Part shown: in pieces, positions 7,212 to 33,841 of the stretch | Layout: each line of letters opens with the position of its first letter | Position numbering within the stretch: position 1 is the stretch's first letter | Origin: Shinella lacus | Lineage (GTDB): Bacteria; Pseudomonadota; Alphaproteobacteria; Rhizobiales; Rhizobiaceae | Direction: 5' to 3' | Assembly: GCF_010994755.1 (NCBI RefSeq) | Contig: NZ_WHSB02000005.1 | Location: forward strand, 405,281 to 469,280 | DNA length: 64,000 nucleotides | Notes under the pieces: model-generated | What the model saw: the letters and a program-made list of their open reading frames with translations, nothing else | What the model was told of the DNA's origin: nothing | Database searches by the model: none | Position numbers and translations under genes: made by a program

Positions 7212-7229
7212 GAGATGGCGGACAGAGCG
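7212..7229. repeat. attL: left 18-bp attachment repeat
   Basis: Identical over 18 bp to 33748-33765; the bases on both sides differ (A versus T before, T versus G after). It is a displaced copy of the tRNA-Ser 3' end (acceptor strand, CCA and 4 nt downstream). The integrase gene lies 160 bp to its right. Confidence 0.85.
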
Positions 7230-8939: not shown

Positions 8940-9176
8940 ATGACTGCTTCCCGCTGGATGACGATGAAAGACGTCTGCGCCTTCACGCGCCTCTCTCGCG
9001 AGTCTATTAACCGCCTTCGCCGCGCTCACCGTTTCCCCCCGCCTGCAGAAATTGCCGGGCGCGCTCTGTTCATCCGGACAGAAGTAGAGGCTTGGGCTGA
9101 AAGCCAGGAAACTAATCCGCGCCGTAATCTTGCAGACGCAAAGCTCGTCGCCGACGATGCTCGCGCCGCGGCCTGA
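8940..9176 (+). CDS. AlpA-like helix-turn-helix protein (excisionase/regulator)
   Basis: 78-residue winged-helix protein of the AlpA/MerR-like family. It opens with a typical recognition unit: MTMKDVCAFTRLSRESINRLRRAHRFPPP followed by GRALFIRTEVEAWAE. In P4-like elements such proteins activate integrase expression and promote excision. The ATG at 8940 is chosen because the domain begins there; a longer frame runs back to 8871 but adds a tail unlike the family. Its position next to the integrase supports the role. Confidence 0.8.
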   Translation: MTASRWMTMKDVCAFTRLSRESINRLRRAHRFPPPAEIAGRALFIRTEVEAWAESQETNPRRNLADAKLVADDARAAA

Positions 9177-9282: not shown

Positions 9283-9774
9283 TTGCCTGAGTTTAATAGC
9301 GCATTCTTGCTTTCATCGCAAGTATTTTCAACACGAGACACTGGAGTTTTTGGCGAGTATTCAACTGGTTTTGTTGAAAGGCTTGGGCCCAATATTTCAC
9401 CTCGCTCCACCAAACGCCCGAATATTCTTCTAATAGAAGACCGCGATAAATTTTGTGACTTAAGTCGTGACCCGCGCTTCCATCCTGAAGGACTTGAAGA
9501 GGCCTTTGAGGCAGCGACGGCGGTTCTGGCCATTCTCTACCGGCGGCCCAGCCAACGGGAGCGTCTGGGAATGGAACGGTATACGCGACTGCACGAGGCC
9601 GCTGTCGACGCGACCTTGCGCGGTGCAGGCGTCGCGGTGTTCATCAAAACGACCAACGATCGGCTTAGCTACTGGCCCAAAGTCGTCCGCCATTTCGCAC
9701 CCGGTGCGACCTTTAGGTATACGGACAGCGATGGCGCGGCGCTGATCACTGCCATGGCGGGGTCCGAGGCATGA
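9283..9774 (+). CDS. hypothetical protein coupled to the primase gene
   Basis: 163-residue protein of unknown function with no signal peptide or membrane span. The proposed start is a TTG at 9283 because GGGAGG lies 6 bp upstream and no ATG in frame has a comparable ribosome site. The last four bases (ATGA) overlap the start of the prim-pol gene, so the two are probably translationally coupled and may act together in element replication. The middle region (EGLEEAFEAATAVLAILYRR) looks helical. No family was recognised. Confidence 0.65.
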   Translation: MPEFNSAFLLSSQVFSTRDTGVFGEYSTGFVERLGPNISPRSTKRPNILLIEDRDKFCDLSRDPRFHPEGLEEAFEAATAVLAILYRRPSQRERLGMERYTRLHEAAVDATLRGAGVAVFIKTTNDRLSYWPKVVRHFAPGATFRYTDSDGAALITAMAGSEA

Positions 9775-11693
9775 GTCAGGACACGACAGAAACGCGGGCT
9801 CTCACCGAGGCCTTGAACTTCGCGAAACAAGGATTCCGTCTTTTCCCCCTTCGGCCAGGCACAAAACGCCCTATCAGCAATCTGTCCTGGCCGAAAAAAG
9901 CGAGCGCGGATGAAGCGAAACTGCGCGCGTGGGCGACCAAGCACCCAGGATGCAACTTCGCGATTGCCACCGGCAAGGGGTTGCTGGTCGTTGACGCAGA
10001 CGGCGCGCCCGGTCTTGCCAGCCTCGAAAGCCTGGAGATTGCGTACGGACTGCCGCAGTCCTTTCGCGTCAAAACGCCTTCTGGCGGCGCGCATGTTTAT
10101 CTCGCCTCCCCCGAGAACTTCAAAAACTTCGTTCACTCGATCCCCGACTTCCCGGGCATCGATATCCGCTCCGATGGCGGCTATGTCGTCGCCCCCGGCA
10201 GCGTCTTCAACGGCAAAACCTACGAGGCGGTCCCCGGTGAGATCGAACCGGCGGGGCAAGATATCGAGCGCTTTTTGATAAGCGCGGCGGCACGGCAGCA
10301 CCAGGCCGCCGCCAAAACGCCAGCCGTCGAGCTCGACTTGCCTAACCACATCGAGATGGCCGTCGAATATTTGTCCCAGCGTGCGCCGGAAGCCGTCGAG
10401 GGGGACGGCGGCAACGCCACAACATACCGGGTTGCCGCGCAGTGCCGTGATTTCGGGCTCTCGCAGGAAACTGCGCTCGAATTAATGCTAGAAAATTGGA
10501 ATGAGCAAAAAGCATTTCCGGCATGGCTTCCTCAAGAGCTTGCTACAATCGTCGGCAATGCCTACCGCTATGCCTCCGGCGGTTGGGGCGCGACCCTAGC
10601 GGCAGCTGAATTCGAAGCGATCGACATTGATGTCGGTGAGCCGCCGGTCGCGGTTAAGCGGCAAGTCGCCGAAGCGCTGGCCAAGGCTGGAGAGCAAGCC
10701 AAACGGCGGCGTCTTCCCGTCGTTTCCTTCGCAGAGGCGATATCCTCGGCGCTAGACGCCGGCGCCGAACCGCTCATCGACGGCGTGCTGGATCAAGGCA
10801 CGGTTGCCGTCCTGTACGGCCCCTCAAACGTCGGAAAGACCTTTGTCGCCTACGACATGTCGGCCGCGATCGCAGCCGGCCAGGTTTGGAACGGGCACGC
10901 CACTACCATGGGCGCGGTGCTCTATTTAGCGACCGAAGGTGGGAAAACCTCCTACAAACGCCTTCTAGCTCTTGCGAAACGTCGGCATCTCCCACCGGAA
11001 ACGCCAATCCACATTGTGCCTTGCACGGTCGATCTCTTCGACCCCAAGGCGGATTGTCAAGAAGTTATGGGGGCATGCAGGGAGATCGAAGGCAGCGGGC
11101 CGGTGCGGCTTGTGGTGGTCGACACGCTGGCCCGCGCGATGGCTGGCGGCGATGAGAATTCGGGAAAAGATATGGGCCAGTTGGTCCGCAATATCGACCG
11201 CATAAGGGCCGCAACGGGAGCCACTGTGCTGATTGTTCATCACACCGGCAAAGACGCGGCGAAAGGCATGCGCGGCCACTCCTCTCTCCTAGCGGCTATC
11301 GATACTGACTTCGAGGTCTTACAGGAGGGTGGTTCGACCGCAGCGGTTTTTCGGAACCACAAACAACGCGATCTCGGAAAGTTGGCGGATCTCAGGTTCT
11401 CGCTTGAGGTTGTTGACCTCGGCGCGGACGATCATGGGCGGCCTGTCTCCTCCTGCGCCGTCCACTGGCTGTCAGAATTCGAGGACGCACCACTGGCGCC
11501 ACCAGCGCAGGCGCTCCTCGACACGCTACGCGAGTTCGCTCGGCCAGCGTCTCTCGCAGAGTGGGTCGCAGCGCATGTTAAGCGGTCGCCACGGGGTAGT
11601 AGCGAAGCCAACCAGCGCAAGCTGCGAAAGCTCCTCGTTGACGCGGGAAGGGTGATTGAGAGGGAAGGTCTTTTCGAACCGTTCAGCAGCTAA
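9771..11693 (+). CDS. prim-pol / RepA-type helicase replication protein
   Basis: 640-residue replication protein with two modules. Residues about 10-170 are a bifunctional primase-polymerase (AEP) domain, with GFRLFPLRPGTKRPI, the acidic pair in LLVVDADG and SGGAHVYL as its usual signatures. Residues about 320-560 are an AAA_25/RepA-like hexameric ATPase, with Walker A GPSNVGKTF, Walker B VRLVVVDTLARA and a VLIVHHTGKD motif typical of RepA/RecA-fold helicases. Such fusions initiate and prime replication of plasmids, P4-like satellites and prophages. A strong terminator and a repeat cluster follow directly, so an origin may lie downstream. Confidence 0.9.
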   Translation: MSQDTTETRALTEALNFAKQGFRLFPLRPGTKRPISNLSWPKKASADEAKLRAWATKHPGCNFAIATGKGLLVVDADGAPGLASLESLEIAYGLPQSFRVKTPSGGAHVYLASPENFKNFVHSIPDFPGIDIRSDGGYVVAPGSVFNGKTYEAVPGEIEPAGQDIERFLISAAARQHQAAAKTPAVELDLPNHIEMAVEYLSQRAPEAVEGDGGNATTYRVAAQCRDFGLSQETALELMLENWNEQKAFPAWLPQELATIVGNAYRYASGGWGATLAAAEFEAIDIDVGEPPVAVKRQVAEALAKAGEQAKRRRLPVVSFAEAISSALDAGAEPLIDGVLDQGTVAVLYGPSNVGKTFVAYDMSAAIAAGQVWNGHATTMGAVLYLATEGGKTSYKRLLALAKRRHLPPETPIHIVPCTVDLFDPKADCQEVMGACREIEGSGPVRLVVVDTLARAMAGGDENSGKDMGQLVRNIDRIRAATGATVLIVHHTGKDAAKGMRGHSSLLAAIDTDFEVLQEGGSTAAVFRNHKQRDLGKLADLRFSLEVVDLGADDHGRPVSSCAVHWLSEFEDAPLAPPAQALLDTLREFARPASLAEWVAAHVKRSPRGSSEANQRKLRKLLVDAGRVIEREGLFEPFSS

Positions 11694-11710
11694 TCGCCGA
11701 TCAATTCGCC

Positions 11711-11750
11711 AAGCCCACCGCTCAAAATGTGATTGAGCGGTGGGCTTTTT
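11711..11750 (+). terminator. strong intrinsic terminator after the prim-pol gene
   Basis: A perfect stem of up to 15 bp (11711-11725 with 11733-11747, core CCCACCGCTCAA/TTGAGCGGTGGG) with a 7-nt loop, followed by TTTTT. The stem arms are also copies of the ACCGCTCAA repeat described in the next entry. Confidence 0.85.
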
Positions 11751-11886
11751 CGTGCTTGCCGGCCACGGGTGGCGATCACAGCCGATCAACGACCGCTCGA
11801 TCCCCAAGCTTAATCATTTCAGATACTTATGCGCGACCGCTCAAAGCGCTCAATTGCGTTTGATCGTTCTTTCCGCCACCGCTCAA
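11714..11886. repeat. cluster of ACCGCTCAA repeats, candidate iterons/origin
   Basis: Five copies of a 9-10 bp motif lie within 175 bp downstream of the replication gene. CACCGCTCAA occurs at 11716-11725 and 11877-11886, GACCGCTCAA at 11835-11844, AAGCGCTCAA at 11844-11853, and the inverted TTGAGCGGTG at 11734-11743. Next to it lies a TATATA-centred inverted repeat (11887-11913). Repeats beside a prim-pol/RepA gene are where P4-like elements and plasmids keep their origins. No binding data can be seen from sequence. Confidence 0.4.
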
Positions 11887-11913
11887 CGCTCACCCCCCTA
11901 TATAGGGTGAGCG
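11887..11913. promoter_or_regulatory. inverted repeat CGCTCACCC-N9-GGGTGAGCG
   Basis: A perfect 9-bp inverted repeat (11887-11895 and 11905-11913) surrounds TATATA. The centre CCCTATATAGGG (11896-11907) is itself a palindrome. The layout suggests an operator over a promoter -10 element or an AT-rich unwinding site next to the repeat cluster. Confidence 0.4.
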
Positions 11914-12810
11914 TAGCGAGCGGGCGTGTTTTGAAGCCACCCCCTTGGCTCTTCCGCCTCGGAGCCGGCACCCATCTCGTTCCAAATCTAAACATCAGAA
12001 AAATCGAAACGACCGGCTCCGAATACCGCGACGTCTCGAAACAGACCGGCCGCAATAGACGCCGAAGAAACAACCGTGCGGACGGATCAATCCCGAGCAC
12101 CGGTGGTGGTGTCCGCCCCAAACCGAAAAGAAGTTGCGTGCGAGACCGCGCTGCCGCGCCGCGCGGTCGGGGCGAGCGCTGTACGGTCCCTGCTCGCTCT
12201 TTTTCGCGCGTGGCGCACACAGGGCGCACGCGTCGCACCTGTGCGGCGCCTCCAGGTGGCCGCAAGCGCGCTCATGTTGACGTGGATGCGCGGGCTCAGC
12301 CTGAGACATAATGCGAGCCAGTGGCGCGCCTAGGCGCCCTACGGGCGTAGACAGAAGGCAAGTAAGGGACCGTAGGCCGCGCGTGCCGTCCGTGAGGCGC
12401 GGCCTCGCCGTCTCGCGCGCAACTTGTGTTTTCGTCTGGGGGGTCATCCTCCCGATTTCGACGTAGGTTGGATTCAGCTGCTCCGGGGGCAGTCAGCCTC
12501 TAGGTCGCATCGCGTCGGGCAGCGCCATTTCGCCGGCGGCATTGGCCAGCAGGGCAGCGTTTCGATTTTTCGGATCTTTGGGCGGCCGAACAGGGTGTGC
12601 CGCTCCGTGGCGGCGCCTGCCAAGGGCCGAGCGTGGACGTTGTCACCACTCCCGTTCACCGGCAGGCACCCAATTTTCGAAATTAATTGAGGCGCGTTTT
12701 TAGTAAAAAACTTCATCCGCCAAACCCGCTGCAACGCGAAAAACTAATTAAGTTGTCAACATGGGTCAGCATAGTACAAGCTGAGCACTATACTTATGTC
12801 GTTGATTTTA
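11914..12810. other. long stretch without a supportable gene
   Basis: About 0.9 kb in which open frames exist on both strands but look like GC-frame artefacts: very Arg/Pro/Ala-rich, no ribosome site, no family signature. The only structure seen is a 14-bp inverted pair, GAAAAATCGAAACG at 11998-12011 and its reverse complement at 12558-12571, about 550 bp apart. An RNA gene, a transfer or packaging site, or a decayed gene are all possible. The end of the stretch (from about 12690) becomes AT-rich and leads into the promoter of the morphogenesis operon. Confidence 0.5.
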
Positions 12811-12813
12811 TTA

Positions 12814-12842
12814 TTGAAATTGAAACAATTATAGTCTATATT
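12814..12842 (+). promoter_or_regulatory. promoter of the morphogenesis operon
   Basis: TTGAAA (12814-12819), a 17-bp spacer and TATATT (12837-12842) form a near-consensus housekeeping promoter. It sits in an AT-rich island 33 bp ahead of the chaperone ATG, with TGGAGG at 12865-12870 as the ribosome site. Confidence 0.6.
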
Positions 12843-12874
12843 AAATCCTGTGCTCGCCACCCCATGGAGGTTTT

Positions 12875-13237
12875 ATGGCGCAGGAAAATCCCGAAACACC
12901 TGAACAGCTTCTCAAGGAAGCGAAGATCATCTCCCCCAAGGAACGCCACCTGGACGTTCCGATTGACTGGCCAGTCGAATTCGACGGCAAGACCTATGAC
13001 ACCATCCGCATCCGCCGCATCTCGGGCCGTGAAGTCGAAACGTTCATCCGCCAGGTCGCAGCGATGACGGACCAGTCACCGGCGGTCATGCCGCCCACCT
13101 TCGATTGCCCGCTCGAAGTTTACGAGGCGATGGACGACGACGACCGGCTGCGTGTGGAGGAAGCCGCGCTCCCTTTTATGCCCCGCCGCTTGAGGGCGGC
13201 GGCCGGTGCAGCCCTGCAGGATATCTCGAACTCGTGA
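12875..13237 (+). CDS. phage tail assembly chaperone (G-like)
   Basis: 120-residue protein resembling the Mu gp41 / lambda gpG-like tail assembly chaperones that sit just upstream of tape-measure genes and keep the tape measure soluble during tail assembly. The typical opening is seen: ERHLDVPIDWPVEFDGKTYDTIRIRRISGREVETF, then a charged C-terminus. The ribosome site TGGAGG is 4 bp from the ATG. A -1 frameshift site inside the gene (13171-13202) would fuse its first 101 residues to the next frame, giving the longer GT-like form. The zero-frame stop overlaps a GTG in the second frame (GTGA, 13234-13237). Confidence 0.8.
   Translation: MAQENPETPEQLLKEAKIISPKERHLDVPIDWPVEFDGKTYDTIRIRRISGREVETFIRQVAAMTDQSPAVMPPTFDCPLEVYEAMDDDDRLRVEEAALPFMPRRLRAAAGAALQDISNS
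13171..13202 (+). promoter_or_regulatory. programmed -1 ribosomal frameshift site
   Basis: The heptamer C CCT TTT (13171-13177) is in the zero frame of the chaperone gene and has the X XXY YYZ form, so both tRNAs can re-pair after slipping to CCC TTT. Five bases later a GC-only 7-bp stem begins (13183-13189 CCGCCGC with 13196-13202 GCGGCGG, 6-nt loop). The -1 frame is open from 13105 to 13389. Position just upstream of the tape measure matches the conserved G/GT frameshift of tailed phages. Confidence 0.75.
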
Positions 13238-13389
13238 GGGTGGTAGCGCGGGCATATTCCACGCCGTTGCCCACGGTTCTTGAAATGGACTGGTTAGAGA
13301 TCGTCGGGCACGCCTACGCCGCCTACCATCACGATTATCTCAAAAAAATGTTTCGCCTGAAATTGGTAGGCGCAAGGGTCAAGATCTGA
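13177..13389 (+). CDS. frameshift extension of the tail chaperone (GT-like T domain)
   Basis: The -1 frame continues 70 codons past the slippery site to a stop at 13387-13389, giving a predicted 171-residue fusion with the first 101 chaperone residues. The extension ends in MDWLEIVGHAYAAYHHDYLKK, a short helical segment like the P2 E' and lambda T regions that contact the tape measure. It could alternatively be translated alone from the GTG at 13234 (51 residues) that overlaps the chaperone stop; the slippery site makes the fusion more likely. The tape-measure gene starts 2 bp after its stop. Confidence 0.65.
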   Translation, partial: YAPPLEGGGRCSPAGYLELVRVVARAYSTPLPTVLEMDWLEIVGHAYAAYHHDYLKKMFRLKLVGARVKI

Positions 13390-13390
13390 C

Positions 13391-15667
13391 ATGGCAAAAA
13401 CGCTCATCGGCCAGCTGATCCTTCGTCTGAGGACGGAAGGGCTCGGTGAGGCCAAAAAAGTCACCGACACCATGCGGGACGTCGAGAACGCCGCGCGCCG
13501 GCTCGGACAGTCCGGTACCGCCTCCTGGGGCGTCGGTTTCCAAAATCAGATCGACAAGCTGAAGCTGACGCAACATCAGCTACACGAGGTCGAAAAGTCG
13601 TGGACGAGGCTTCATGAAGCAATCCGCCAGCGCAACCTTGGCGTTGCGATGAGGGGCGCCGAGGTCGGCCACTGGAAGACCAACACGATATCGCAGCTGG
13701 CCGCTCAGCGCGCCGCGATCGAAAACCACTTCAGAGCCGTCGAAGGAAATGCCCGACAACACGGCATCCGCATGCGGGACATTCTGCGCGCTGGATATGT
13801 CTCCCTCGGCTTTTACACCGGCGCCCAGGCCGGGGGCACCGTAACACGAGTGGGGTTTAAGGAGGCCTCAGAACGTAGCCGCGTCGATGCGGAAAACTAC
13901 TACCGCGGCCTAAGCGAAAAGGAACGCGGCTCAATCGGCACCGCTGCCGACGACCTGGCCAGCCGGCGCCGCGTGAGTAAGACCGATGTCATGGAGATCC
14001 TGGCGGACGCCTCCATGTCCATGAAAACCACGGACGCCGCCATAAGCACGGGCGACGCGCAAGTGCAGGCATTCAAGGTCTGGTCAAACACGTATGGCCA
14101 GGAGGCGGCGATCGGATATCTGCGCGCCTTCAACCGGGCAATGGACAATATCAACATCGATGACCCCGACATGTATAAGGGGATGCTCGACAACTTCATG
14201 AAGGCCTGGCAGGTGTCCGGCAAGGACATTGACCCCGCCGCATGGGCACAGGGCATCAAATACGCCAGGGGATCGGGCAAAGTCTTCGACCACGATTTCC
14301 TGTCCCGCGTTCTTCCATTCGTCATGGCTGAAACCAGCGGCACAGACGCCGGCACACAGCTTCGCGCGATTTTCGACCAGTTCATTGTCGGGCGCGCATC
14401 AAAAGAGTCGATCGCCGCTCAGAGCGAGTACGGCCTTCGCGATGGTGTGAAGCGCGACGCGAAGGGCCGGGTCATAGAAAAGGGCACTCTGACCCAGGCC
14501 GATCTTTTCGCGAAAAACCCGCTCGATTGGTTCAACCAAGTGCTCTTACCGGCGATGGAGGCCAAGGGCGTCAATACCGGTGATCCCGTAGTCCTCGCAG
14601 AGGAGATCGGAAAACTCACGAATAACCGCCTTTCGTCGGATGCGGCGATCAAGGCGATCCTCGGCTTCGAACAGATGCAAAGGATCCTAAACGAACGCTT
14701 CCCGAACGCGAAGGGCCTCGCGGCGGCCGACACAATGGATGATAAAAGCCTTTCGTCGGCAACGGATGGCCTTGTGACTGCCTACGGCAACCTGGCGGCG
14801 GCGCTCGCCCCCGTTGAATCGGTCATCAATCCGGGCTTGAACGCCCTGGCCGACGGCATCAACAGATTGGCGGCGGCTGCAAAAGACAATCCCATCCTCG
14901 TGTCGCTGGGCCTTCTGAGTGCCGGCGCCGGGGCGCTGAAGGGCGGGCAGTTCGCCCTCGGCAAAATGACGGACATGTTCGGCCTCAAAGGAAGCGCCAT
15001 CGCACTGGATGGCTCCGCTGCCGCTCTCACGCGCGCCGCTGTGGCGCTCGGCGGCGCGGGCGTTGCAGATGGCCTTGGCGGCGTCGGCGACGGGAAAGGC
15101 AAGCCCTCGAGCAAAGTCGGAAGAGCGGCCAAGTATGGCGCCCTCGCGGCGGGACCAGGCATGACGATCTACGCAGTCGATCAGATGTTGTTCGGCGGCG
15201 CCGGGTCGAAGAAACTTGATGAAAACATGTCCTACGCCTCGGCCTTCCTTAAGGCGCTGGGCACACTGTGGAACCGGGAGCTTCGAGGAAAGGAAACAGC
15301 TGCCGGCGACGAGAACCTTGCTGCGCCCGGCTGGTTCAGAAGGTTCATGCTCGGAAAGGCCGCCGATGAGAATTTCAGTTTCCGCGACCACATGGGGATC
15401 CCGCTCCGTGGCGCAACACCGCAGGTCGACACCGACGGTTTAGACCAGGCCCAACAGAAAGCGATGCAGACGGGCCAGGGAATCTTGGATGCTCTGAGCG
15501 TCACGGCAAGGCCGCTCGTGGACTTGGGGCCTCTGCAGGAGGCGGCCCGCCTCGTGCAGGTCATCAAGGCCGGGCTCGACGGCATCGGCGCCGGGGCTAC
15601 GCGGGCGCAAAACAACGTCGGCGCCGAGATGCGGCGCAACTTCTCGGATCGCGGGGGCGGAATGTGA
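13391..15667 (+). CDS. phage tail tape-measure protein
   Basis: 758-residue tape measure, which would set tail length and help DNA passage. It is largely alpha-helical. Residues 1-130 contain a coiled-coil-like region (FQNQIDKLKLTQHQLHEVEKS). A central part reads like the TIGR01760-type core (MEILADASMSMKTTDAAISTGDAQVQAF...LRAFNRAMDNI). A hydrophobic Gly/Ala-rich segment lies near residues 500-600. Length is short to medium for the family; siphophage tape measures scale with tail length, so a fairly short tail is implied if it works. It follows the frameshifting chaperone, the usual order. No tail tube, terminator or baseplate genes are nearby. Confidence 0.85.
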   Translation: MAKTLIGQLILRLRTEGLGEAKKVTDTMRDVENAARRLGQSGTASWGVGFQNQIDKLKLTQHQLHEVEKSWTRLHEAIRQRNLGVAMRGAEVGHWKTNTISQLAAQRAAIENHFRAVEGNARQHGIRMRDILRAGYVSLGFYTGAQAGGTVTRVGFKEASERSRVDAENYYRGLSEKERGSIGTAADDLASRRRVSKTDVMEILADASMSMKTTDAAISTGDAQVQAFKVWSNTYGQEAAIGYLRAFNRAMDNINIDDPDMYKGMLDNFMKAWQVSGKDIDPAAWAQGIKYARGSGKVFDHDFLSRVLPFVMAETSGTDAGTQLRAIFDQFIVGRASKESIAAQSEYGLRDGVKRDAKGRVIEKGTLTQADLFAKNPLDWFNQVLLPAMEAKGVNTGDPVVLAEEIGKLTNNRLSSDAAIKAILGFEQMQRILNERFPNAKGLAAADTMDDKSLSSATDGLVTAYGNLAAALAPVESVINPGLNALADGINRLAAAAKDNPILVSLGLLSAGAGALKGGQFALGKMTDMFGLKGSAIALDGSAAALTRAAVALGGAGVADGLGGVGDGKGKPSSKVGRAAKYGALAAGPGMTIYAVDQMLFGGAGSKKLDENMSYASAFLKALGTLWNRELRGKETAAGDENLAAPGWFRRFMLGKAADENFSFRDHMGIPLRGATPQVDTDGLDQAQQKAMQTGQGILDALSVTARPLVDLGPLQEAARLVQVIKAGLDGIGAGATRAQNNVGAEMRRNFSDRGGGM

Positions 15668-15840
15668 TGGTTCTCACTTTTTTCGCCTCCCTTGTCGCCC
15701 TCGTAACCGCGACGGGGATCCTTCTCCCAACTGGCAACGCCTGGCGCACGCCAGAGGACGCCGTGACGCGCGTGATAAGCGCCGCGGCTATCCTTTACCT
15801 GATCGGGCACGCCATCTTATCCCACGGAGGACTTTTGTGA
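15667..15840 (+). CDS. 57-residue two-helix membrane miniprotein
   Basis: Small protein not long enough for routine ORF lists. Its ATG overlaps the tape-measure stop (ATGA) and its stop overlaps the GTG of the protease gene, so it is locked into the operon. Two hydrophobic stretches are visible, about residues 2-21 (LTFFASLVALVTATGILL) and 38-51 (AAAILYLIGHAIL), separated by a charged turn. A holin-like or inner-membrane tail-tip role is possible, but there is no sequence signature to decide. Confidence 0.65.
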   Translation: MVLTFFASLVALVTATGILLPTGNAWRTPEDAVTRVISAAAILYLIGHAILSHGGLL

Positions 15841-16925
15841 TTGAAACCCTAGCTACAGCTGGTCCGTTCGCAATGTACGGACCGAATTTTGAGAGCTTGG
15901 CGCGCTCGCTCACCGATCCAAAGGCGCTCGAGGCGAGCCGGCCCTTCCAGGCGCAAAAAGGCGAGCGCCTCGGGATCTTGAACGGAATTGGAAGGCTTTA
16001 CATCGCCGGCCCGCTGTTCAAGCGTGACTCTGCAGTGACCAAATTTTTCGGGTTTTCGACCTACGAAATGTTGCGGCGCGATTTGCAGGTGGCACTCGAA
16101 CATCCGAGGATGGACGCTATCGCCTTGCACATCGACAGCCCCGGCGGCGAGTCAAACGGCTGCGACGAGCTCGCACACGCGATTTTCGAAGCCCGGAAGA
16201 AAAAGCCGATCGCCGCATTCGTGTCTGGCATGGGTTGCTCGGCGGCCTACTGGCTGGCGAGCGCCACCAGCCGGATTGTTGCTTCGGATGCGGCCATCGT
16301 CGGCAGCGTCGGCGTCGTTATGAGCTACACAGACAACAGCAAGGCGAGGCAAAACGCCGGAATTCAGGATTTTAACTTCGTATCCTCCCAAAGCCCCAAC
16401 AAGGGCTTTGCACCCGATCGCGTGCAGAAGATGGTTGACGATCTCGCTGCGGTCTTCGTTGACGCGGTCGCGCGCCACCGGGGAATTTCAGCGGAAAAAG
16501 TGCAGTCCTGGCGCGGTGGTGTTGAAATAGGCGCGCAAGCAAAGTCGGTAGGCATGGTCGACGGCACCGGCCGGTTCGAAGATGTTCTCGCCTATCTTCA
16601 GCGGCAAGCCCCGGCCAAGTCTGGCGGCGGTTCAATGCGGGCACCCGCCCCAGCAAATCGCACCGTTGTCGCTGCCTCGCCGATTGCGCGGCCCCCAACG
16701 GTGGAAGAGATCCGCGCCAAAGCGGCGGCCGATGCGCAGGTGCTGGCACGTGCCCGGCTCCAGGCGATCCTTCAGAGCCCAGAGGGCCGCGCTCTGCCAG
16801 AGCTCGCGTATCAGCATGCCGCCGACCACTCGCTCACTGCAGCGCAGGTCATCGAGAAATTGAAACAAGAGCGGATCGCCGCGGGCTGGCAGGATGCCGT
16901 TAAGCGCGCCAGCCCGCTGCATTAA
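15837..16925 (+). CDS. S49-family (lambda C / SppA-like) serine protease
   Basis: 362-residue serine peptidase of the ClpP/crotonase fold. The SppA-type elements are IALHIDSPGGESNG (oxyanion strand), the nucleophile Ser in GMGCSAAYWLAS and GSVGVVMSY; the basic partner residue falls in the segment after it. Prophage members of this family process the prohead scaffold. A Pro/Ala linker (about 265-285) leads to a helical C-terminal tail of about 75 residues ending KQERIAAGWQDAV, which could be a substrate or scaffold segment as in lambda C/Nu3. The GTG start is preceded by GGAGG. There is no capsid or portal gene here for it to serve. Confidence 0.85.
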   Translation: MIETLATAGPFAMYGPNFESLARSLTDPKALEASRPFQAQKGERLGILNGIGRLYIAGPLFKRDSAVTKFFGFSTYEMLRRDLQVALEHPRMDAIALHIDSPGGESNGCDELAHAIFEARKKKPIAAFVSGMGCSAAYWLASATSRIVASDAAIVGSVGVVMSYTDNSKARQNAGIQDFNFVSSQSPNKGFAPDRVQKMVDDLAAVFVDAVARHRGISAEKVQSWRGGVEIGAQAKSVGMVDGTGRFEDVLAYLQRQAPAKSGGGSMRAPAPANRTVVAASPIARPPTVEEIRAKAAADAQVLARARLQAILQSPEGRALPELAYQHAADHSLTAAQVIEKLKQERIAAGWQDAVKRASPLH

Positions 16926-16941
16926 ATCAGGAGAAACCGCA

Positions 16942-17946
16942 ATGCCAAACATCCTCTACGAGAAATTCGGTTCCGTTGCGCAGGAACTTGCGCCGCGCCC
17001 CCGTGGTCGCCCACCGAAGCCGGAACTCACTCCGCTTGAAGCGGTGCTTTCCGATCCGCTGCCGGAGGAAATCAACCAACTGGCCGCCGACCTGGTAAAG
17101 GCGAAGGCGGCAGTGGATGAGGCGAAGCGCGCATACTATGAAGAGCAGAAGGTGTCGGCAGTCACGGTGGAAGCCAAAATTGAGCGCGCGGCAAAAGCGG
17201 CCGATTCTGCGCGCAACAACCTGAACTACTCCAGGGATGAGTTCAATGCTGCCTCCAAAGATGCAGCCGAGGCACGCGACGCCTATAAGGCAGAGCAGCG
17301 CAAGTGGAACCCGCGGCCGGAGGACCTGGCAGAAACAGAGCGGGTGTGCGTCGCGGCTGAGAAGAGGGAGGCAGCATTTAAGCGCGCATTTGAGTTCGCC
17401 CAGGAGCAGTATGCCGCAGCCCAGAAGGTGGAAGAAGACGCGAGGCGCGACCCCGAGGCCGCGGCATACAACGCACTGATGCGGGCATCTGCTCAACAGG
17501 ATATCGCTGCCCAAATTGGCTCAGTGGCCCCGGCGCCTACCAAGGCTGAAATGGAAGAGCTTCGTGCCGCCTACGAGAAGTCGAAACTTCAGAAGGCTGC
17601 AATGTTGGGGCCGCGCCTCGAAGCGTTTAAAAATGAGGTGTTGTCGAGGGCAAAAGTTGTGGCTCAAATCCGGCAGACGTTAATAGACCTGCTTGCGCCG
17701 CTTGAGGCGAAGTGGCGTGCAACTGCCGACAAGCAGCTTGCAACGGCTGTGACGCTGGTTGCGCAAACCGAGCAACTCAGCAGCCTCTTTTCGAAAAACC
17801 AGGACGTCTATCATGTGTTTCGTCGCGATCGGATCAGCGGCGACGGAGAGCACGTAGGCCGCCACGAAATCGACGGCGGCGACGCCGTGCGGGACGTGTA
17901 CCTGGCACTCTACAACAGTTGGGAAAAGGCGAACCCCAGGGTTTAG
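16942..17946 (+). CDS. helical/coiled-coil protein of unknown function, paralogue 1
   Basis: 334 residues, almost entirely charged and alanine-rich helix. After a short N-terminal stretch with an AT-hook-like RPRGRPPKP, it has a PLEAVLSDPLPEEINQLAADL motif, long heptad-like repeats (AKAAVDEAKRAYYEEQK), and a C-terminal block LLAPLEAKWRATADKQLATA. Both end motifs recur in the next gene, so the two are tandem paralogues. The ATG at 16942 has AGGAG at proper spacing; an upstream ATG at 16894 lies inside the protease gene. A scaffold, minor structural or DNA-binding role is possible; no family was recognised. Confidence 0.75.
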   Translation: MPNILYEKFGSVAQELAPRPRGRPPKPELTPLEAVLSDPLPEEINQLAADLVKAKAAVDEAKRAYYEEQKVSAVTVEAKIERAAKAADSARNNLNYSRDEFNAASKDAAEARDAYKAEQRKWNPRPEDLAETERVCVAAEKREAAFKRAFEFAQEQYAAAQKVEEDARRDPEAAAYNALMRASAQQDIAAQIGSVAPAPTKAEMEELRAAYEKSKLQKAAMLGPRLEAFKNEVLSRAKVVAQIRQTLIDLLAPLEAKWRATADKQLATAVTLVAQTEQLSSLFSKNQDVYHVFRRDRISGDGEHVGRHEIDGGDAVRDVYLALYNSWEKANPRV

Positions 17947-18015
17947 TGCCCTTCTCAACGCTCGGGGCACCATCGCCGGTGCCCCAACTTTCCCGACAAA
18001 TAGGAGACCGATTAA

Positions 18016-18813
18016 ATGTCTGCAGTGCACATTGCCGAGCCAGTTGAAACGGGCGCGCCGGTCGATCGGACGCCCATTGAAATCGCATTGTCCGAGCAGT
18101 TGCCGCCGGACGTGGTAGCCGCGTTCAAGGCACTGGCCGAAGCGATCAGGGCGGCTGATAATGCAAGAGCGGCCTATCGTTTGGAGGAAGCTGAGGCTGC
18201 TATTTTTCGTGACGCGGCGTCACGCAAATCTGAAATAGCGCGCAGCGAGGTCGAGGCGTACGCAGGCAAGCTTCTCGAGGCTGAGCAGCGCATTGAGCAG
18301 GCCCGTCGCGTGCTGAAAGAGGCTGCTGCTTGTGAGGGCGTATCCGGAAATCGCGAAGCAGTAGAGAAAGCTACGAAGGACTTGGCTGCGTATAAAATCT
18401 TGAAGGATGGCACTGAAGCTCTGGCGATCGCCGCTCGAGAGAAGCTGGAGGCGGCTATAAGGTCGGCAGAAAGGACTTCCAACGTGGGTCCGCTCCGGAC
18501 CGAAGTTTTCCGCCGGGGTGCTGCGGTCACGGCGGCCCGCGAGGCTTTGGATAACGCGCTGGCGCCCTTGGAAGAGAAATGGGGCGATGCTGTTCATAAG
18601 CAGTTTGAACTTGCTGCAAACATGATCGCTCAGGCCGAACATTTTCGCAGCGCACGGCGCGGCAACGGGGAACTAAGCGCAGCATTCGAATATCGTTCTG
18701 AGGACGGCATTATCGAGTACCGGGGCGATCAGACCTTGCCGATTAGCGAGTTTCTCACTGACGGTTATCTTTCGAGAAAATACAGCTGCGACCGGTCCCG
18801 GCCGATCCTCTAA
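18016..18813 (+). CDS. helical/coiled-coil protein of unknown function, paralogue 2
   Basis: 265 residues, built like its neighbour: an N-terminal PIEIALSEQLPPDVVAAFKALAE motif, a long charged helix and a C-terminal ALAPLEEKWGDAVHKQFELAANMIAQAEHF block that aligns with paralogue 1. It lacks the RGRPPKP stretch and the tail is different (EYRGDQTLPISEFL). The ribosome site is TAGGAG, and the gene is followed by a strong terminator, so it ends the morphogenesis operon. Confidence 0.75.
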   Translation: MSAVHIAEPVETGAPVDRTPIEIALSEQLPPDVVAAFKALAEAIRAADNARAAYRLEEAEAAIFRDAASRKSEIARSEVEAYAGKLLEAEQRIEQARRVLKEAAACEGVSGNREAVEKATKDLAAYKILKDGTEALAIAAREKLEAAIRSAERTSNVGPLRTEVFRRGAAVTAAREALDNALAPLEEKWGDAVHKQFELAANMIAQAEHFRSARRGNGELSAAFEYRSEDGIIEYRGDQTLPISEFLTDGYLSRKYSCDRSRPIL

Positions 18814-18877
18814 GCGGGGTATCTCCTACCCGCTGACGCGGCAGGTTTAGCCGGAAAAATCCGGTTTGCCGCGAACC

Positions 18878-18914: not shown

Positions 18915-18916
18915 GC

Positions 18917-20374
18917 TCAAATGCCGAGCATGCCTGCAATATAGAAGCACCCCGCGGCCACAGCTAGCGAAGCAAGCGCCTGCAGGCCATAGGCGGGTCG
19001 GGGGGCGGCCTTTGGCGCCGGTACAATATCCGGCAGGAAATTCTTGAAGTCTCCCGCCTGCCATCGATCGCCAGCCCAGTTGATGGGTGGTAAGCCGGCG
19101 GCAGCGCGCATTCGGTCAGTGAACTGCTTCTGCATAGCGTCAACGTCCACCACCGAAGGGTACTTGCCGGCCAGCGGATTGTCGCGAAGCAGCACCTCGC
19201 GCTCCAGGTTGGAGATCGGCCCGATTTGCGATTGAGGCGGGCTCACCTTGACCTTCTCGACCGGCGACGGCACGCCGTCATCAATCATGACAGAAACCAG
19301 CGCCTCGCCGATTCCCATGTTTACCACCTCTGCCTTGACGTCGACTCCCTTATTCGGGCGAAACGCCTGCGCAGCGGCGCGAACAAACCTCTGCTCCTTC
19401 GGAGTGTAGACCCGCAGTGCATGCTGCACGCGGTTGCCAAGCTGCGCCAAAACGGTTTCAGGAATGTCAGCCGGCGACTGGCTGACAAAGAAAACGCCAA
19501 CGCCCTTGGATCGGACCAGGCGAACGAGGCGCTCGATTTGTTGCAACAGGGGTTTCGGCGCGTCACGGAACAGCAAATGCGCTTCGTCAAAGAAGAACAC
19601 CAGTTTTGGCCGGTCCAGGTCGCCAGCCTCCGGCAATTCCCGAAAAAGCTCAGTGAGGAGCCAGAGCAGGAAGATTGAATAGAGGCCAGGGCACTCCATC
19701 AGCTGATCCGCGTGCAGCAGGTTGACGACCCCCTGGCCGTGTTCGGTGCGCAGAAAATCCGTGATTTTGAACGGCGGTTCGCCAAAGAGGTGGTGCCCGC
19801 CTTGCGATTCCAGCGCCAGAATGTTCCGCTGGATAGCAGCTATCGAAGAGGCCGAGATGTTTCCGTACTTGCGGCAGATTTCTTCGCGCATGTCCAACAG
19901 GTCTGACAGGCTCCAACGCAGGTCATCCAGCGACAGCAAAAACGTTTGATCGTCCTTCGCCTTTTTGAAGGCAATGGCCAGTGTGCCGTATTGGGTTTCG
20001 TTCAGGCGCAGCATTGACGCGAGGAGCTCCGGCCCCAAGGCCTGCACCGACGTGCGGATCGGCAGCCCACGCTCTGCAAAAATGTCCCATAGAGCAACCG
20101 GGCATCGGTGCGGCACAAAATCGGCGCGGCGTTTCGCGGCATTGGATTGCGGGTCTCCGAGCGCAGCAATGCCGGAAAGATCGCCCTTCACATCGGCCGC
20201 GAAAACCGGCACGCCAGCGCGGGAGAAGCCTTCTGCCAGCGTCTGCAACGTGACCGTCTTGCCCGTGCCTGTGGCGCCCGTCACAAGCCCGTGGCGGTTG
20301 CCGTATTTCAGCGGCGGGCCGATGGCCTTGCCGGATTGGGTGAGGCCGAGAGTGACTGACTGAACCTGTTGCAT
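18917..20374 (-). CDS. HerA/YjgR-type (DUF853) ATPase with C-terminal membrane segment
   Basis: 485-residue FtsK/HerA-superfamily ATPase of the YjgR/DUF853 type. Walker A is VTGATGTGKTVTLQ near residue 35, Walker B is KLVFFFDEAHLLF near 275, and an arginine-rich VRSKGVGVFFVSQSPAD sensor region follows. Unusually, the last 20 residues (ALASLAVAAGCFYIAGMLGI) form a hydrophobic helix that would anchor the ring to the membrane. The ATG at 20374 is preferred to one at 20443 because an AAGGAT site precedes it and the family starts there. HerA relatives act as DNA pumps, often in defence or transfer; no nuclease partner is adjacent. Confidence 0.8.
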   Translation of the reverse strand: MQQVQSVTLGLTQSGKAIGPPLKYGNRHGLVTGATGTGKTVTLQTLAEGFSRAGVPVFAADVKGDLSGIAALGDPQSNAAKRRADFVPHRCPVALWDIFAERGLPIRTSVQALGPELLASMLRLNETQYGTLAIAFKKAKDDQTFLLSLDDLRWSLSDLLDMREEICRKYGNISASSIAAIQRNILALESQGGHHLFGEPPFKITDFLRTEHGQGVVNLLHADQLMECPGLYSIFLLWLLTELFRELPEAGDLDRPKLVFFFDEAHLLFRDAPKPLLQQIERLVRLVRSKGVGVFFVSQSPADIPETVLAQLGNRVQHALRVYTPKEQRFVRAAAQAFRPNKGVDVKAEVVNMGIGEALVSVMIDDGVPSPVEKVKVSPPQSQIGPISNLEREVLLRDNPLAGKYPSVVDVDAMQKQFTDRMRAAAGLPPINWAGDRWQAGDFKNFLPDIVPAPKAAPRPAYGLQALASLAVAAGCFYIAGMLGI

Positions 20375-20411
20375 TTGGCGATCCTTGCAATCGACTCGAA
20401 GGGCGATATAA

Positions 20412-20471
20412 GACTTTATGTCAGATATTCGACCTTGCTGCAACTCGAGATCAAACGTTGGACTTTATGTC
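20412..20471. promoter_or_regulatory. 11-bp direct repeat between HerA-like and HTH genes (candidate operator)
   Basis: GACTTTATGTC occurs at 20412-20422 and again at 20461-20471, overlapping the HTH gene start. The pair sits in the 92-bp divergent promoter region, as expected for an autoregulating HTH protein that also controls the ATPase. Confidence 0.45.
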
Positions 20472-27640: not shown

Positions 27641-27726
27641 GGCGCTGAGAAGATAATCCTAGGCTCTCCATTGGCGAAAAAATTAATGGCCTTTGATACA
27701 ATGCCGGATAAGTGAGAGGGGCGCCC

Positions 27727-28476
27727 ATGGCCGAAACATCAATTGAATGGACCGATGCGACGTGGAACCCGGTGGCCGGCTGTACCATCATGAGCGCCGG
27801 CTGCACGAACTGCTACGCCATGCGGATGGCGGCTCGCCTCGATGCAATGGGCGTGGAAAAATACCGGGGCCTGACGCGCAAAACGGGCCGGCGGGCGAAG
27901 TGGACTGGAGCCCTGTATCTCGATGACAACGCGCTCGGAATTCCTGCGACTTGGTCACGACCGCGCAACGTGTTCGTCAACTCGATGTCTGATCTGTTTC
28001 ATCCGGACGTGCCGATCGAATTTATTCGTAAGGTATGGGCTGCAATGTCTGCGACGCGGCGGCATACCTATCAGATTTTGACTAAACGGCCTGATCGAAT
28101 GGCCGAGATTCTCCGCGACGGTTTTGATGTTTTGCCGAACGTTTGGCTAGGCGCCAGTGTCGAAGACAACCGCGTGCTCCACCGGCTCGACGACCTTCGA
28201 GAAGTTCCGGCCGCCATTCGTTTTGTGTCTTTTGAGCCGCTAATCGGCTCGGTCGCCGGCGGTCGTCTGGAAGGTATCCAATGGGCAATTGTGGGCGGAG
28301 AGTCCGGCCCTCAAGCTCGGCCCATGAATCCGGCGTGGATCGATGAGATTTTTGATATGTGCACAGACGCGAACGCCTCATTCTTTTTCAAGCAGTGGGG
28401 TGGAAAGAACAAGAAGGCCGCCGGCCGCTCCTACCGGGGTCGAACCTGGGACGAGATGCCAGCTTTGAGTATGTGA
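27727..28476 (+). CDS. DUF5131 (phage Gp37/Gp68) three-cysteine protein
   Basis: 249 residues with the family opening SIEWTDATWNPVAGC, then two further cysteines in MSAGCTNCYA (spacing C-x6-C-x2-C), a radical-SAM-like cluster arrangement. Other landmarks are PRNVFVNSMSDLFH, YQILTKRPDRM, NVWLGASVED and FVSFEPLIG, with IQWAIVGGESGP and FFFKQWGG near the end. The ATG at 27727 has GAGAGGGG upstream; a GTG at 27712 is less likely. It converges on the TcmP gene and overlaps it by 46 bp at the 3' ends. The reaction is not known; the family is named by its association with TcmP. Confidence 0.9.
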   Translation: MAETSIEWTDATWNPVAGCTIMSAGCTNCYAMRMAARLDAMGVEKYRGLTRKTGRRAKWTGALYLDDNALGIPATWSRPRNVFVNSMSDLFHPDVPIEFIRKVWAAMSATRRHTYQILTKRPDRMAEILRDGFDVLPNVWLGASVEDNRVLHRLDDLREVPAAIRFVSFEPLIGSVAGGRLEGIQWAIVGGESGPQARPMNPAWIDEIFDMCTDANASFFFKQWGGKNKKAAGRSYRGRTWDEMPALSM

Positions 28477-29369
28477 CCGGCAATTTGCCTTGCCAGCTTG
28501 TTCGCAGCCTTGCTTGGATTTGATACAGCAAAGAACAGAGAAGCCATCGGCGCACCATTTTTGTGGCGCAACCGGAGAGGGGGCAGGACGCTGCCCCTAA
28601 ACGTCGAGCTGAGGTGGTCGTGCACCCACTTTTCGATGACATCGACTGTCGCGACGCGCCGCTCCTTGGAGGGGATCTGGTTGCCCCATAAGTCAATCTG
28701 GTGGCTCTGCGCCTCCATGGCGTACCACTCCTGCCGCCAACGGTCCGTGCCGAACACCCTTGTCAAAGCCTCAGATTTGCCGTCGTCAAGGTCCAGCGGA
28801 TCATGCGGCGCATTTCGGTAGAGACCCGACAAAGGAAAGAAGTACCAGCAATCAAGTGCCTCGGTTCGCGCGATCGCTTCGACGGTCTTCCAACTCACCT
28901 CCATGCCGTATGGGTCAAGAAAAATCACTCCTCGAATTCGTTCCTGTTGCCACCTGTACCTCGCGCAAAGCGCCTGCACGATGTCGTTCGCGTCACCCTC
29001 CCGGATCTGTGCCCGACAGTCCGGATATTCGGCAAGAACCGCTTTGAGCGCGGCTACTTTGGCGGGATCCTGTTCAATGAAGACGTTTGCGTGAAATCTA
29101 GGCTCAGTCTCGAGAGCGATCCGCGCTGAACCTGGCGTCGATACTTCTTCGAGAACCTCCACTCCATTCTCCATGAAGGGGAGCGCTGCTCGAGTTTCCG
29201 TGCGGTTGCCAGTACCGGCGAATGCATCGATGTATATCCGCGCGAAATTCTGCTTTTGAAGTGCGATGGAGTAATACTTGAGATACTCGCGGAGGCAGTG
29301 CAATTTTCGCTCGGTTTCCGAGCTCCCGAAAAAATGGTGAAGGGCGGCGTTAGGAGTGGTTTCGTTCAA
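28431..29369 (-). CDS. tcmP: three-Cys-motif partner protein TcmP
   Basis: 312-residue TcmP family protein. It carries methyltransferase-like landmarks: ARIYIDAFAGTGNR (motif I) and GVIFLDPYGMEVSW (motif IV-like DPYG), consistent with a Rossmann fold, plus DCWYFFPLSGLYRNAP and MASLFFAVSNP. The TTG at 29369 is chosen because GGAGGAGACG precedes it and the family begins near FFGSSETERKLHCLREYLKYY; the frame is open to 29435 without a better site. Its partner DUF5131 gene lies tail to tail with it. Activity of the pair is unproven; nucleic-acid modification is one guess. Confidence 0.88.
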   Translation of the reverse strand: MNETTPNAALHHFFGSSETERKLHCLREYLKYYSIALQKQNFARIYIDAFAGTGNRTETRAALPFMENGVEVLEEVSTPGSARIALETEPRFHANVFIEQDPAKVAALKAVLAEYPDCRAQIREGDANDIVQALCARYRWQQERIRGVIFLDPYGMEVSWKTVEAIARTEALDCWYFFPLSGLYRNAPHDPLDLDDGKSEALTRVFGTDRWRQEWYAMEAQSHQIDLWGNQIPSKERRVATVDVIEKWVHDHLSSTFRGSVLPPLRLRHKNGAPMASLFFAVSNPSKAANKLARQIAGHILKAGISSQVRPR

Positions 29370-29532
29370 CGTCTCCTCCAGTCGACAGATTATGTCTCGG
29401 CGAGCGGCATGCCGGCAAATCGGCGGCATGTGCAATTGACATGCGATAGACTTACAGGTTGCATACGCAAGTCAAGCTTACTTTGCGGTGCGTGGAAATT
29501 GAATTTTGCAGTGGCTGTTTTTAGAGGGTTCG

Positions 29533-33033: not shown

Positions 33034-33133
33034 GTTTTGCTCCTTTCTGTACAACGTTTGGCACTTTTTGATTGCCAAAGAGTTAAGCTTCTTGTACAGA
33101 TCGTACCACACATGAAACAAAAGAGGCGACAAA

Positions 33134-33747: not shown

Positions 33748-33765
33748 GAGATGGCGGACAGAGCG
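33748..33765. repeat. attR: right 18-bp attachment repeat
   Basis: Identical to 7212-7229. It covers 14 bases of the tRNA-Ser 3' end, including CCA, plus 4 bases downstream of the tRNA, so the intact tRNA lies on the right, host side. Confidence 0.85.
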
Positions 33766-33841
33766 GGATTCGAACCCGCGATAGAGTCTCCCCTATACAC
33801 ACTTTCCAGGCGTGCGCCTTCAACCACTCGGCCACCTGTCC
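33752..33841 (-). tRNA. tRNA-Ser (anticodon GGA)
   Basis: 90-nt class II tRNA with encoded CCA. On the minus strand it begins GGACAGGTGGCCGAGTGGTT, has the anticodon in GCCTGGAAAGTG, a long variable arm (TATAGGGGAGACTCTATC), the T-loop GGTTCGAATCC and ends CTGTCCGCCA. The acceptor stem has six Watson-Crick pairs and a closing G7-U66 wobble. The 3' end is the integration site of the element and has been kept functional by the shared 18-bp core. Confidence 0.95.

Follow-up and report, generated by a model that had tools for sequence, protein, structure and literature searches.

The window analysed here, a stretch of 64,000 nucleotides from Shinella lacus, carries a tRNA-Ser island of 26.5 kb (7212-33765) flanked by exact 18-bp repeats that occur only twice in the 64-kb window when up to 3 mismatches are allowed (Table 1). 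The site is unoccupied, with the island absent, in 2 of 12 congeners. These repeats, the tRNA-Ser gene and the empty site in congeners overturn the borders given in the first-pass annotation (9771-18813); the integrase, AlpA-like factor and prim-pol that it had named as a trio are all confirmed, but the integrase and AlpA genes lie outside that interval. Similarly, its list of a chaperone, a tape measure, a small protein, a protease and two helical proteins is correct but lacked a HerA-type ATPase and a candidate defence pair. Its argument from an intact promoter and terminator is not supported, since promoter-like sites (2 versus 2.1 expected) and terminator-like sites (7 versus 8.7 expected) in 11650-19000 are no more numerous than expected and no terminator-like site follows 18813; one sigma-70-like site lies upstream of the chaperone gene (12814-12842).

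Table 1. Features of the tRNA-Ser island and its integration site (positions in the window).
Feature	Position	Strand	Basis or remark
Attachment repeat, left	7212..7229	none	GAGATGGCGGACAGAGCG; exact 18-bp copy at 33748-33765
Tyrosine integrase, 399 aa	7391..8590	+	PF00589, PF13356, PF22022; phrog_1 5e-38
AlpA-like excisionase/regulator	8940..9176	+	PF05930, PF12728; phrog_66
163-aa ORF, upstream of prim-pol	9283..9774	+	homologues in G581a and G048 islands
Prim-pol / AAA helicase, 640 aa	9771..11693	+	PF09250 2e-36, PF13481 2e-39
Tail assembly chaperone, gpE-like (P2-type), 120 aa	12875..13237	+	phrog_166 0.0058 (weak); Pfam TAC_7 0.025, below its cut-off
-1 slip heptamer C CCT TTT, in frame	13171..13177	+	read from sequence
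Chaperone -1 frame extension, 70 aa	13177..13389	+	open frame; ends 1 base before tape measure start
Tape measure protein (TMP), 758 aa	13391..15667	+	homology to tape measures of contractile phages
58-aa protein	15664..15840	+	overlaps TMP end; no clear Pfam/PHROG family
S49 head maturation protease, 362 aa	15837..16925	+	phrog_53 4e-70
Helical protein, 350 aa, RGRP (AT-hook-like) motif near N-terminus	16894..17946	+	homologue in G581a
Second helical protein, paralogue of the 350-aa one	18016..18813	+	27% over 303 aa, E 6e-11
HerA/YjgR-type ATPase, element-specific clade	18917..20443	-	PF05872 3e-167; PDB 11kk YjgR 3e-131
Cargo: DUF5131 protein, PDC-M41B	27712..28476	+	
Cargo: PDC-M41A, candidate defence partner	28431..29435	-	
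Attachment repeat, right	33748..33765	none	overlaps 3' end of tRNA-Ser
tRNA-Ser (GGA), integration site	33752..33841	-	RF00005 match

Site-specific integration, an integrase and an own replication gene, which are traits of phage satellites in general, are all found in the window island, as is the complete trio of integrase, AlpA-like factor and prim-pol known from P4-like satellites. The integrase shares 61% identity with that of the G520 island, and the AlpA-like protein has homologues in the islands of G520, G581a and G048.

Downstream of these genes lies a tail module. At E<=0.1 neither Pfam nor PHROG matches the window TMP, which is recognised by its similarity to the tape measures of contractile phages, P2-like ones among them (tblastn, 20 records, best E 2e-8), and to the TMP of a full prophage (phmmer 1.8e-41); with homologues in full phages and in islands, a chance match or misreading is ruled out. 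The preceding chaperone shows 54% identity to TMP-adjacent ORFs in G561 and G619 and matches the ORF at the chaperone position of the full prophage G113 (phmmer 4.8e-15). Five of 6 element chaperones have such a slip site and -1 extension; the heptamer reads CCCTTTT in 4 of the 6 and TTTTTTT in one more. A chaperone was detected beside the TMP in 4 of 13 delimited islands as well as in the undelimited G619 and G668, a count to be read in light of how easily such short proteins are missed. The 58-aa protein is hydrophobic and likely forms two membrane helices, as judged by eye. The window island has no hub gene; chaperone, TMP and hub occur as a set in G535 and G581b, both delimited, and in G668, which is undelimited.

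The S49 protease gene that follows is of head type. Eight copies from elements cluster in a single clade next to the head proteases of phages (support 96/95), with the Ser and Lys conserved in 8 of 8 copies. A plain S49 search matched 289 of 297 genomes, mostly with apparent SppA/SohB; phrog_53 and the tree place the island protease with phage head proteases and not with these chromosomal enzymes. The 350-aa protein is predicted to be mostly helical (pLDDT 65) and may be a scaffold; its homologue in G581a lies directly 3' of the S49 gene (E 2e-29). A 390-aa protein in the same position elsewhere was considered as a capsid protein and rejected, the G582 copy having no PHROG family at 0.01 and the G561 copy matching only coiled-coil-type Pfam below cut-off. 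On the opposite strand, the HerA-type ATPase is no ordinary yjgR gene: the 7 element copies form one clade (100/100) apart from 10 non-island copies, and all 10 genomes searched have another copy outside islands. Its nearest solved relative is YjgR, and it shows weak similarity (1e-10) to phrog_2666, a "terminase large subunit" family.

Homologues of the window TMP were found at 28 loci, which include two fragments counted from the TMP match alone (G644 C15, G467) and leave out the weak matches G002 and G016 (E ~2e-5); in the alignment behind this search the G063 row is an antisense ORF (12408-15059, + strand), the actual G063 TMP lying at 11487-13868 on the minus strand. Searching viral contigs returned no relatives and genome contigs 2. 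The first-pass annotation had named as a counter-scenario that homologous blocks always sit in full-length prophages. Instead, 13 of the 28 loci lie in islands of 11-27 kb bounded by tRNA repeats, distributed over 12 genomes, 11 genera and different tRNAs. It had also proposed looking for the same gene block in other tRNA islands, and seven delimited islands of 23.8-27.0 kb (25.7 +/- 1.1 kb) indeed have in common the TMP, the S49 protease and the element-only HerA clade.

These modules recur together and are mostly under purifying selection. Relaxed selection, the second counter-scenario, is not seen: at values near saturation, dN/dS of the TMP is 0.16-0.19 in three pairs of 59-70% identity and 0.45 in a distant fourth (window and G561), with 0.19-0.25 for S49, 0.14 for the chaperone and 0.14 for HerA, while for p286 the G033/SP168 pair, nearly identical and with hardly any substitutions to count, comes out at 1.96. 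On the whole, TMPs encoded by islands fall below those of contractile phages in length, with a median of 743 aa (n=13) versus 888.5 aa (n=8) or, after adding TMPs of 808 and 810 aa, 882 aa (n=10; p 4e-4 for both), albeit with overlap (in 3 of 13 islands the TMP is at least as long as the shortest phage one) and lengths that are not independent. A first TMP tree, in which the G063 row was the antisense ORF, grouped 11 delimited islands with G668 and the decayed member G619 (91/97). In a second tree, with G063 corrected, KLER1-1 added and G619, G404, G553, G1070, G302 and Milano left out, the window joins G561 and G668 (100/99) and nine islands form another group (96/99), without supported union of the two and with G063 and G243 apart. 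A single clade of all island TMPs is thus not supported, and we do not claim one origin for the TMP.

The islands could also be what is left of a full contractile-tailed phage that shrank by deletion and whose remaining genes are decaying, as their P2-type tail and lambda-type head genes, the existence of full prophage G113 with a related TMP and the visible decay of relative G619 would suggest. We consider this already disfavoured and quite unlikely, because 13 delimited islands, inserted at different tRNAs, repeat the pattern of a TMP unaccompanied by sheath or shell genes and because the slip site is conserved, selection is purifying and the S49 and HerA copies form element-specific clades. 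It is instead well supported that the island is satellite-like, has its own chaperone and tape measure and is maintained by selection.

The complete gene set of a virion is absent from the window island as far as it is recognisable among the listed profile families. Neither profiles (25 of 30 matched PHROG families listed) nor phage queries revealed a capsid, portal, large terminase, sheath or tube there, so the earlier statement that capsid, portal, terminase and tail tube are missing is borne out among the matches listed. For the large terminase this relies on one model, phrog_2, which has no place within the 12 other delimited islands nor on the window's contig. Similarly, 133 phage and prophage protein queries (E<=1e-4) matched in islands only the TMP, chaperone, hub, S49 and a DUF4815-type tail protein, the latter in the G582 island only, and among 20 queries from KL3 (Peduoviridae) only D and T matched. 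For the six smaller islands, the PHROG scan covered 22 proteins from five and none from G644, and the G063 query was an antisense ORF.

One could imagine that members of 24-27 kb are self-sufficient viruses which encode an unrecognised shell and use the HerA ATPase as packaging motor, in line with the narrow size range of the seven islands, the HerA element clade and its similarity to phrog_2666. This seems very improbable, as neither the PHROG families listed (25 of 46 for the relatives, 25 of 30 for the window) nor the phage-query matches include a sheath, tube, baseplate wedge or portal, the gene 3' of S49 is coiled-coil and not capsid-like, and the ATPase is closest to YjgR. Moreover, the G567 island carries a small terminase, suggesting that packaging borrows the machinery of a helper.

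Taken together, the island is probably a phage satellite in integrated form, belonging to a family that appears to be undescribed and occurs in Rhizobiaceae and neighbouring families; its transfer and helper dependence we infer. During growth of a contractile-tailed helper, the island would excise and replicate with its own prim-pol, and the helper's chaperone and tape measure would give way to those of the island (along with the hub in some relatives). The satellite's ruler, in most cases the shorter one, would then dictate assembly of helper tube and sheath and yield chimeric tails specific to the satellite, like those of the PLEs discussed below, while the S49 and helical, scaffold-like proteins may act on helper head proteins and redirect capsid assembly. 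A Mu-like contractile prophage (C33; MuA-like, sheath, TerL) resides in the same genome and is a possible helper only.

Alternatively, the chaperone, TMP and protease could poison the assembly of incoming phages for defence or helper suppression without building satellite tails. Tail-assembly inhibition by satellite or prophage proteins is known (Tai, Rta), and the island holds the candidate defence pair PDC-M41. As the main function we find this unlikely, since a poison would hardly require a conserved frameshift product and the hub in two islands fits building rather than blocking, though both roles can coexist.

As a rather speculative extension of the satellite interpretation, the 24-27 kb islands might constitute a new class of satellite that remodels a pirated virion at head and tail alike, with chaperone and TMP setting tail length, S49 and a coiled-coil, partly AT-hook-like scaffold setting the head, and HerA/YjgR instead of the helper terminase driving or selecting DNA entry. 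HerA-driven DNA entry would explain the near-constant island size of 26 kb.

Compared to known satellites, the islands share integrase, AlpA-like factor and prim-pol with PICIs and P4-like elements but differ by their tail genes and, in the S49/HerA group, by their size of 24-27 kb. PICIs redirect packaging with a small terminase, of which the window genome shows no match (phrog_57, 0 at 1e-6), unlike the G567 island. The psu, delta and sid genes of P4-like satellites are not among the PHROG matches listed (the best 25 of 30 families in an untargeted scan). The order chaperone-TMP(-D) and the frameshift design resemble the E/E'-T-U-D module of Peduoviridae (P2-like), none of whose FI, FII, U, baseplate, head and lysis genes turned up in the islands. 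S49-headed contractile phages like KLER1-1, which has a TAC_7 contractile tail, encode a related head protease (phmmer E 6e-52 to the window copy), but there it lies between portal and decoration/capsid genes, whereas the islands lack those neighbours and often have the coiled-coil gene next.

Some cf-PICIs also carry structural genes including putative tmp genes, according to a figure legend (PMC12987554, Extended Data Fig. 10); in the window island, no capsid genes of their own type are among the matches listed (25 of 30 families) or the 133-query matches, nor were a portal or large terminase found. The closest parallel are the PLEs of Vibrio cholerae, for which a 2026 study describes demonstrated satellite-encoded tape measures, TAC and TMP with BhuB in some PLEs, chimeric tails, and an experimentally shown chaperone-TMP-hub set in PLE11 (PMC12987554). 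The first-pass view that most described satellites bring no tape measure is superseded, and the principle of a satellite-encoded ruler is not new, because PLE-encoded rulers have already been demonstrated (PMC12987554). As in PLEs, a satellite's TAC and TMP lie in one island in the window, with a hub in some members, a contractile tail type and a TMP that tends to be shorter than the phage's, as judged here from predicted protein lengths. By description, the islands are set apart from PLEs by the other bacterial class, the P2-type -1 frameshift chaperone and tRNA integration with prim-pol/AlpA, and further by the S49 head protease and HerA ATPase.

Among the open-licence literature matches listed, we found no description of this alphaproteobacterial family, its conserved frameshift or its S49/HerA coupling, nor of a tail ruler repeatedly combined with head protease and mobile HerA ATPase. 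The 2026 work left open how general tail manipulation by satellites is (PMC12987554). The 13 bounded islands offer a separate setting, with a recurring tape-measure module that is deletable and comparable across members, and since relatives occupy tRNA genes elsewhere in the bacterial order, a whole family is available for testing the idea of a tail ruler. The repeated combination of tail ruler, head protease and mobile HerA ATPase provides a concrete handle on what determines the capsid and genome size of satellites.

The 26.5-kb island of the window, a putative phage satellite in a tRNA-Ser gene (window at G000:C40:405281-469280 in a genome of 7.04 Mb), extends further on both sides than the first-pass annotation had assumed. 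That reading placed a satellite with its own tail chaperone and tape measure protein (TMP) at 9771-18813; its central idea is supported, on a stronger basis than it originally had, but its borders are corrected to 7212-33765. The island has lower G+C than its surroundings, and the left flank lies within about 115 bases of the right flank in 2 of 12 compared congeners holding the latter (G004 and G002); in a third (G003), part of this left flank lies at a distance of about 1.3 kb, and in the other 9 it was not found within 1.5 kb. The left end comprises an integrase, an AlpA-like factor, a 163-aa ORF, and a prim-pol, followed by the chaperone, TMP, a 58-aa ORF, an S49 head maturation protease, and a pair of paralogous helical proteins (E 6e-11 between them). 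Right of the HerA/YjgR-type ATPase, the cargo includes SRAP and a convergent pair called PDC-M41 by PADLOC, a candidate anti-phage defence module; its DUF5131 ORF has a homologue in the G619 context. The C-terminus of a 727-aa protein resembles a tyrosine recombinase by eye (no Pfam match at 0.01), and the island may thereby encode a second recombinase. Short ORFs similar to the two of helix-turn-helix look occur in 7 other islands.

Features of the window island (window positions)
Feature	Position	Strand	Remark
Left attachment repeat	7212-7229		18 bp, exact
Slip heptamer of chaperone ORF	13171-13177		in frame
TMP	13391-15667		758 aa
S49 protease	15837-16925
HerA/YjgR-type ATPase	18917-20443	-	right of helical proteins; PF05872 3e-167; PDB 11kk YjgR
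Short ORF, helix-turn-helix look by eye	20458-20700	+	related to 32800-33270
DUF5131 / PDC-M41A-B pair	27712-28476; 28431-29435	+; -	convergent, overlapping; PADLOC
727-aa protein	30090-32273	-
Short ORF, helix-turn-helix look by eye	32800-33270	-	related to 20458-20700
Right attachment repeat	33748-33765		18 bp, exact; overlaps tRNA-Ser 3' end

TMP or its profile was searched against whole genomes of 61 relatives and of the order (397), family (346), and class (385), sets that overlap; together with one MAG contig this yielded 28 distinct TMP loci, not counting two weak matches among the 61 relatives. The case that would have refuted the first-pass annotation, homologous blocks always lying within full-length prophages, does not hold: 13 of the 28 loci are islands delimited by exact repeats, one copy being the 3' part of a tRNA gene, in 12 genomes of 11 genera. 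The G113 locus is a contractile prophage with sheath, head closure, hub, and endolysin; G186 (sheath, head-closure, chaperone, and hub genes) and G378 (hub and gpU-position gene) look like phage tail clusters because they have these genes in common with it. The contig of G1070 also encodes a large terminase, at 10 kb from the TMP locus; two loci are fragments (G467 and G644 C15), and 9 are assigned neither to islands nor to phages (G619, G668, G263, G302, G404, G553, G489, G513, and SP168). At G048:C3 (L066+L010+L011), the smaller tandem island has its own integrase and a repeat in common with its neighbor. The TMP region of G033 (L008-L009; NZ_SMSI01000001), which we take to be Pseudohoeflea suaedae of the same family as the window genome (Rhizobiaceae), is 94% identical over 3.1 kb to that of the Hyphomicrobiales MAG SP168 (L043); the match ends there, with none further in the 10.8 kb compared, forming a mosaic border.

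Delimited islands with a TMP homologue
Island	Size (kb)	tRNA	Repeat (bp)
Window	26.5	Ser	18
G520	12.7	Ser	16
G033	12.2	Arg	45-54 range
G063	11.0	Arg	45-54 range
G048 (tandem with second 4.9-kb island)	19.2	Thr	45-54 range
G243	15.6	Arg	45-54 range
G582	25.3	His	45-54 range
G581b	27.0	Cys	45-54 range
G535	26.4	Arg	45-54 range
G561	26.0	Glu	45-54 range
G567	23.8	Cys	45-54 range
G581a (same genome as G581b)	24.8	Val	20+26, split
G644	15.5	Arg	45-54 range

When 133 proteins of phages (KL3, KLER1-1, ZRG1, and Milano) and prophages (G113, G186, and C33) were compared to the 1,753 ORFs of 14 contexts (13 islands and G619; phmmer at 1e-4), island matches were found for TMP, chaperone, hub, S49, and a protein shared with G582, with one S49 query also weakly matching a further G535 ORF. 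All places of the large terminase (phrog_2) lie outside every delimited island; a small terminase (phrog_57) is found in one, G567, just upstream of TMP. No capsid, portal, large terminase, sheath, or tube appeared among the best 25 of 46 PHROG families (69 proteins, three islands) or the best 25 of 30 (65 proteins, four islands); the scan of the six smaller islands covered 22 proteins from five of them (all but G644).

Over 20-37% of its length, the window TMP is similar to those of contractile phages from Acidovorax, Burkholderia, and Agrobacterium (best E 2e-8 among 20 records). At the heptamer C CCT TTT of the window chaperone ORF, a -1 shift opens 70 codons ending one base short of the TMP start. 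Chaperones adjoin TMP in the window, G535, G561, G581b, G619, and G668, and 5 of these 6 have a fitting heptamer (CCCTTTT in 4, TTTTTTT in 1) with a similar extension, which the same test did not find in G668 or prophage G113. A P2 D-type hub lies by TMP in G535 and G581b (phrog_52) and in G668 (65% identity), and the G582 island (L101:6071-9330) contains two ORFs of a DUF4815/VrlC-like tail protein with relatives of 1,088-1,172 aa in prophages G186 and G113. Median TMP length is 743 aa in islands (n = 13) versus 888.5 aa in 8 contractile phages or 882 aa in 10 (adding KLER1-1 and a C33 ORF; Mann-Whitney p 4e-4 with either set, shared descent not corrected for), with overlapping ranges in that 3 of 13 islands reach the shortest phage value of 778.

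Relaxed selection on TMP and chaperone, which would speak against the first-pass reading, is not seen overall. Pairwise dN/dS, rough because most dS exceed 1, is 0.16 (G561/G619), 0.18 (G033/G048), and 0.19 (G581a/G520) for TMP and 0.45 for the distant pair window/G561; values are 0.14 each for chaperone, coiled-coil protein, and HerA, 0.25 and 0.19 for S49, and 1.96, on almost no changes, for p286 (G033/SP168). On the whole, these sequence comparisons suggest that island genes are kept and argue against general decay. Single members do decay, as shown by G619 with a TMP frame split near its end (L099-L100, L129) and copies of an IS-like 1,241-bp repeat at HerA and prim-pol.

TMP, S49, and an extra HerA copy occur together in eight contexts (window, G581a, G619, G561, G567, G582, G581b, and G535); the seven delimited ones measure 25.7 +/- 1.1 kb, and the six delimited islands for which neither S49 nor HerA was detected 14.4 +/- 3.0 kb. 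Each of 10 genomes compared carries a single yjgR copy elsewhere than in the islands; an extra copy is present in all seven with S49 islands (in two pieces in G619), whereas the three without (G033, G520, and G048) have none. The seven unbroken element HerA copies form one clade versus ten other copies (support 100/100), and the eight element S49 copies form one beside phage head proteases (96/95; several long branches elsewhere in the tree), all keeping the Ser and Lys that form the catalytic pair of the family. In phages KLER1-1, ZRG1, and Cr-LKS3, a protease gene of this kind is flanked by the portal gene and decoration/capsid genes. Directly after or beside S49, seven contexts have a coiled-coil protein (265-424 aa in all eight), which lies and elsewhere in the island in G582. 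These proteins form two sequence groups (window and G581a versus the other six), both with members sharing an AT-hook-like RGRP motif near the N-terminus (window, G581a, G561, and G619); the model of the window protein consists of long helices and is of modest confidence (pLDDT 65). HerA may serve packaging or DNA selection, given its weak match to phrog_2666 and the viral packaging motors in its superfamily, or else defence, given its matches to the PADLOC mad8 and HerA models.

The nearest experimentally tested case is that of the Vibrio cholerae PLE satellites, from which a satellite-encoded tail ruler is already known as a principle. PLEs encode chaperone and TMP and some also a hub; the satellite TMP is present in PLE11 virions, whose tails are shortened by about 10 nm, and transduction drops by 96-99.9% when tmp is lost (PMC12987554). 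An alphaproteobacterial island family with a conserved frameshift that couples tail ruler, head protease, and HerA ATPase was not found in the literature searched. P2-like phages have the order FI-FII-E/E'-T-U-D; the window island has E/E' and T alone. By analogy with PLEs, it would use a helper to assemble contractile tails of chimeric make-up. One candidate for a resident helper is the Mu-like contractile prophage C33 of the same genome (L072-L074, about 275-316 kb), with a MuA-like transposase (E 5e-75), sheath, large terminase, hub-like gene, and an 810-aa ORF in TMP position. Gene order in phages further suggests that the S49 protease and helical proteins may provide a second control point at the head.
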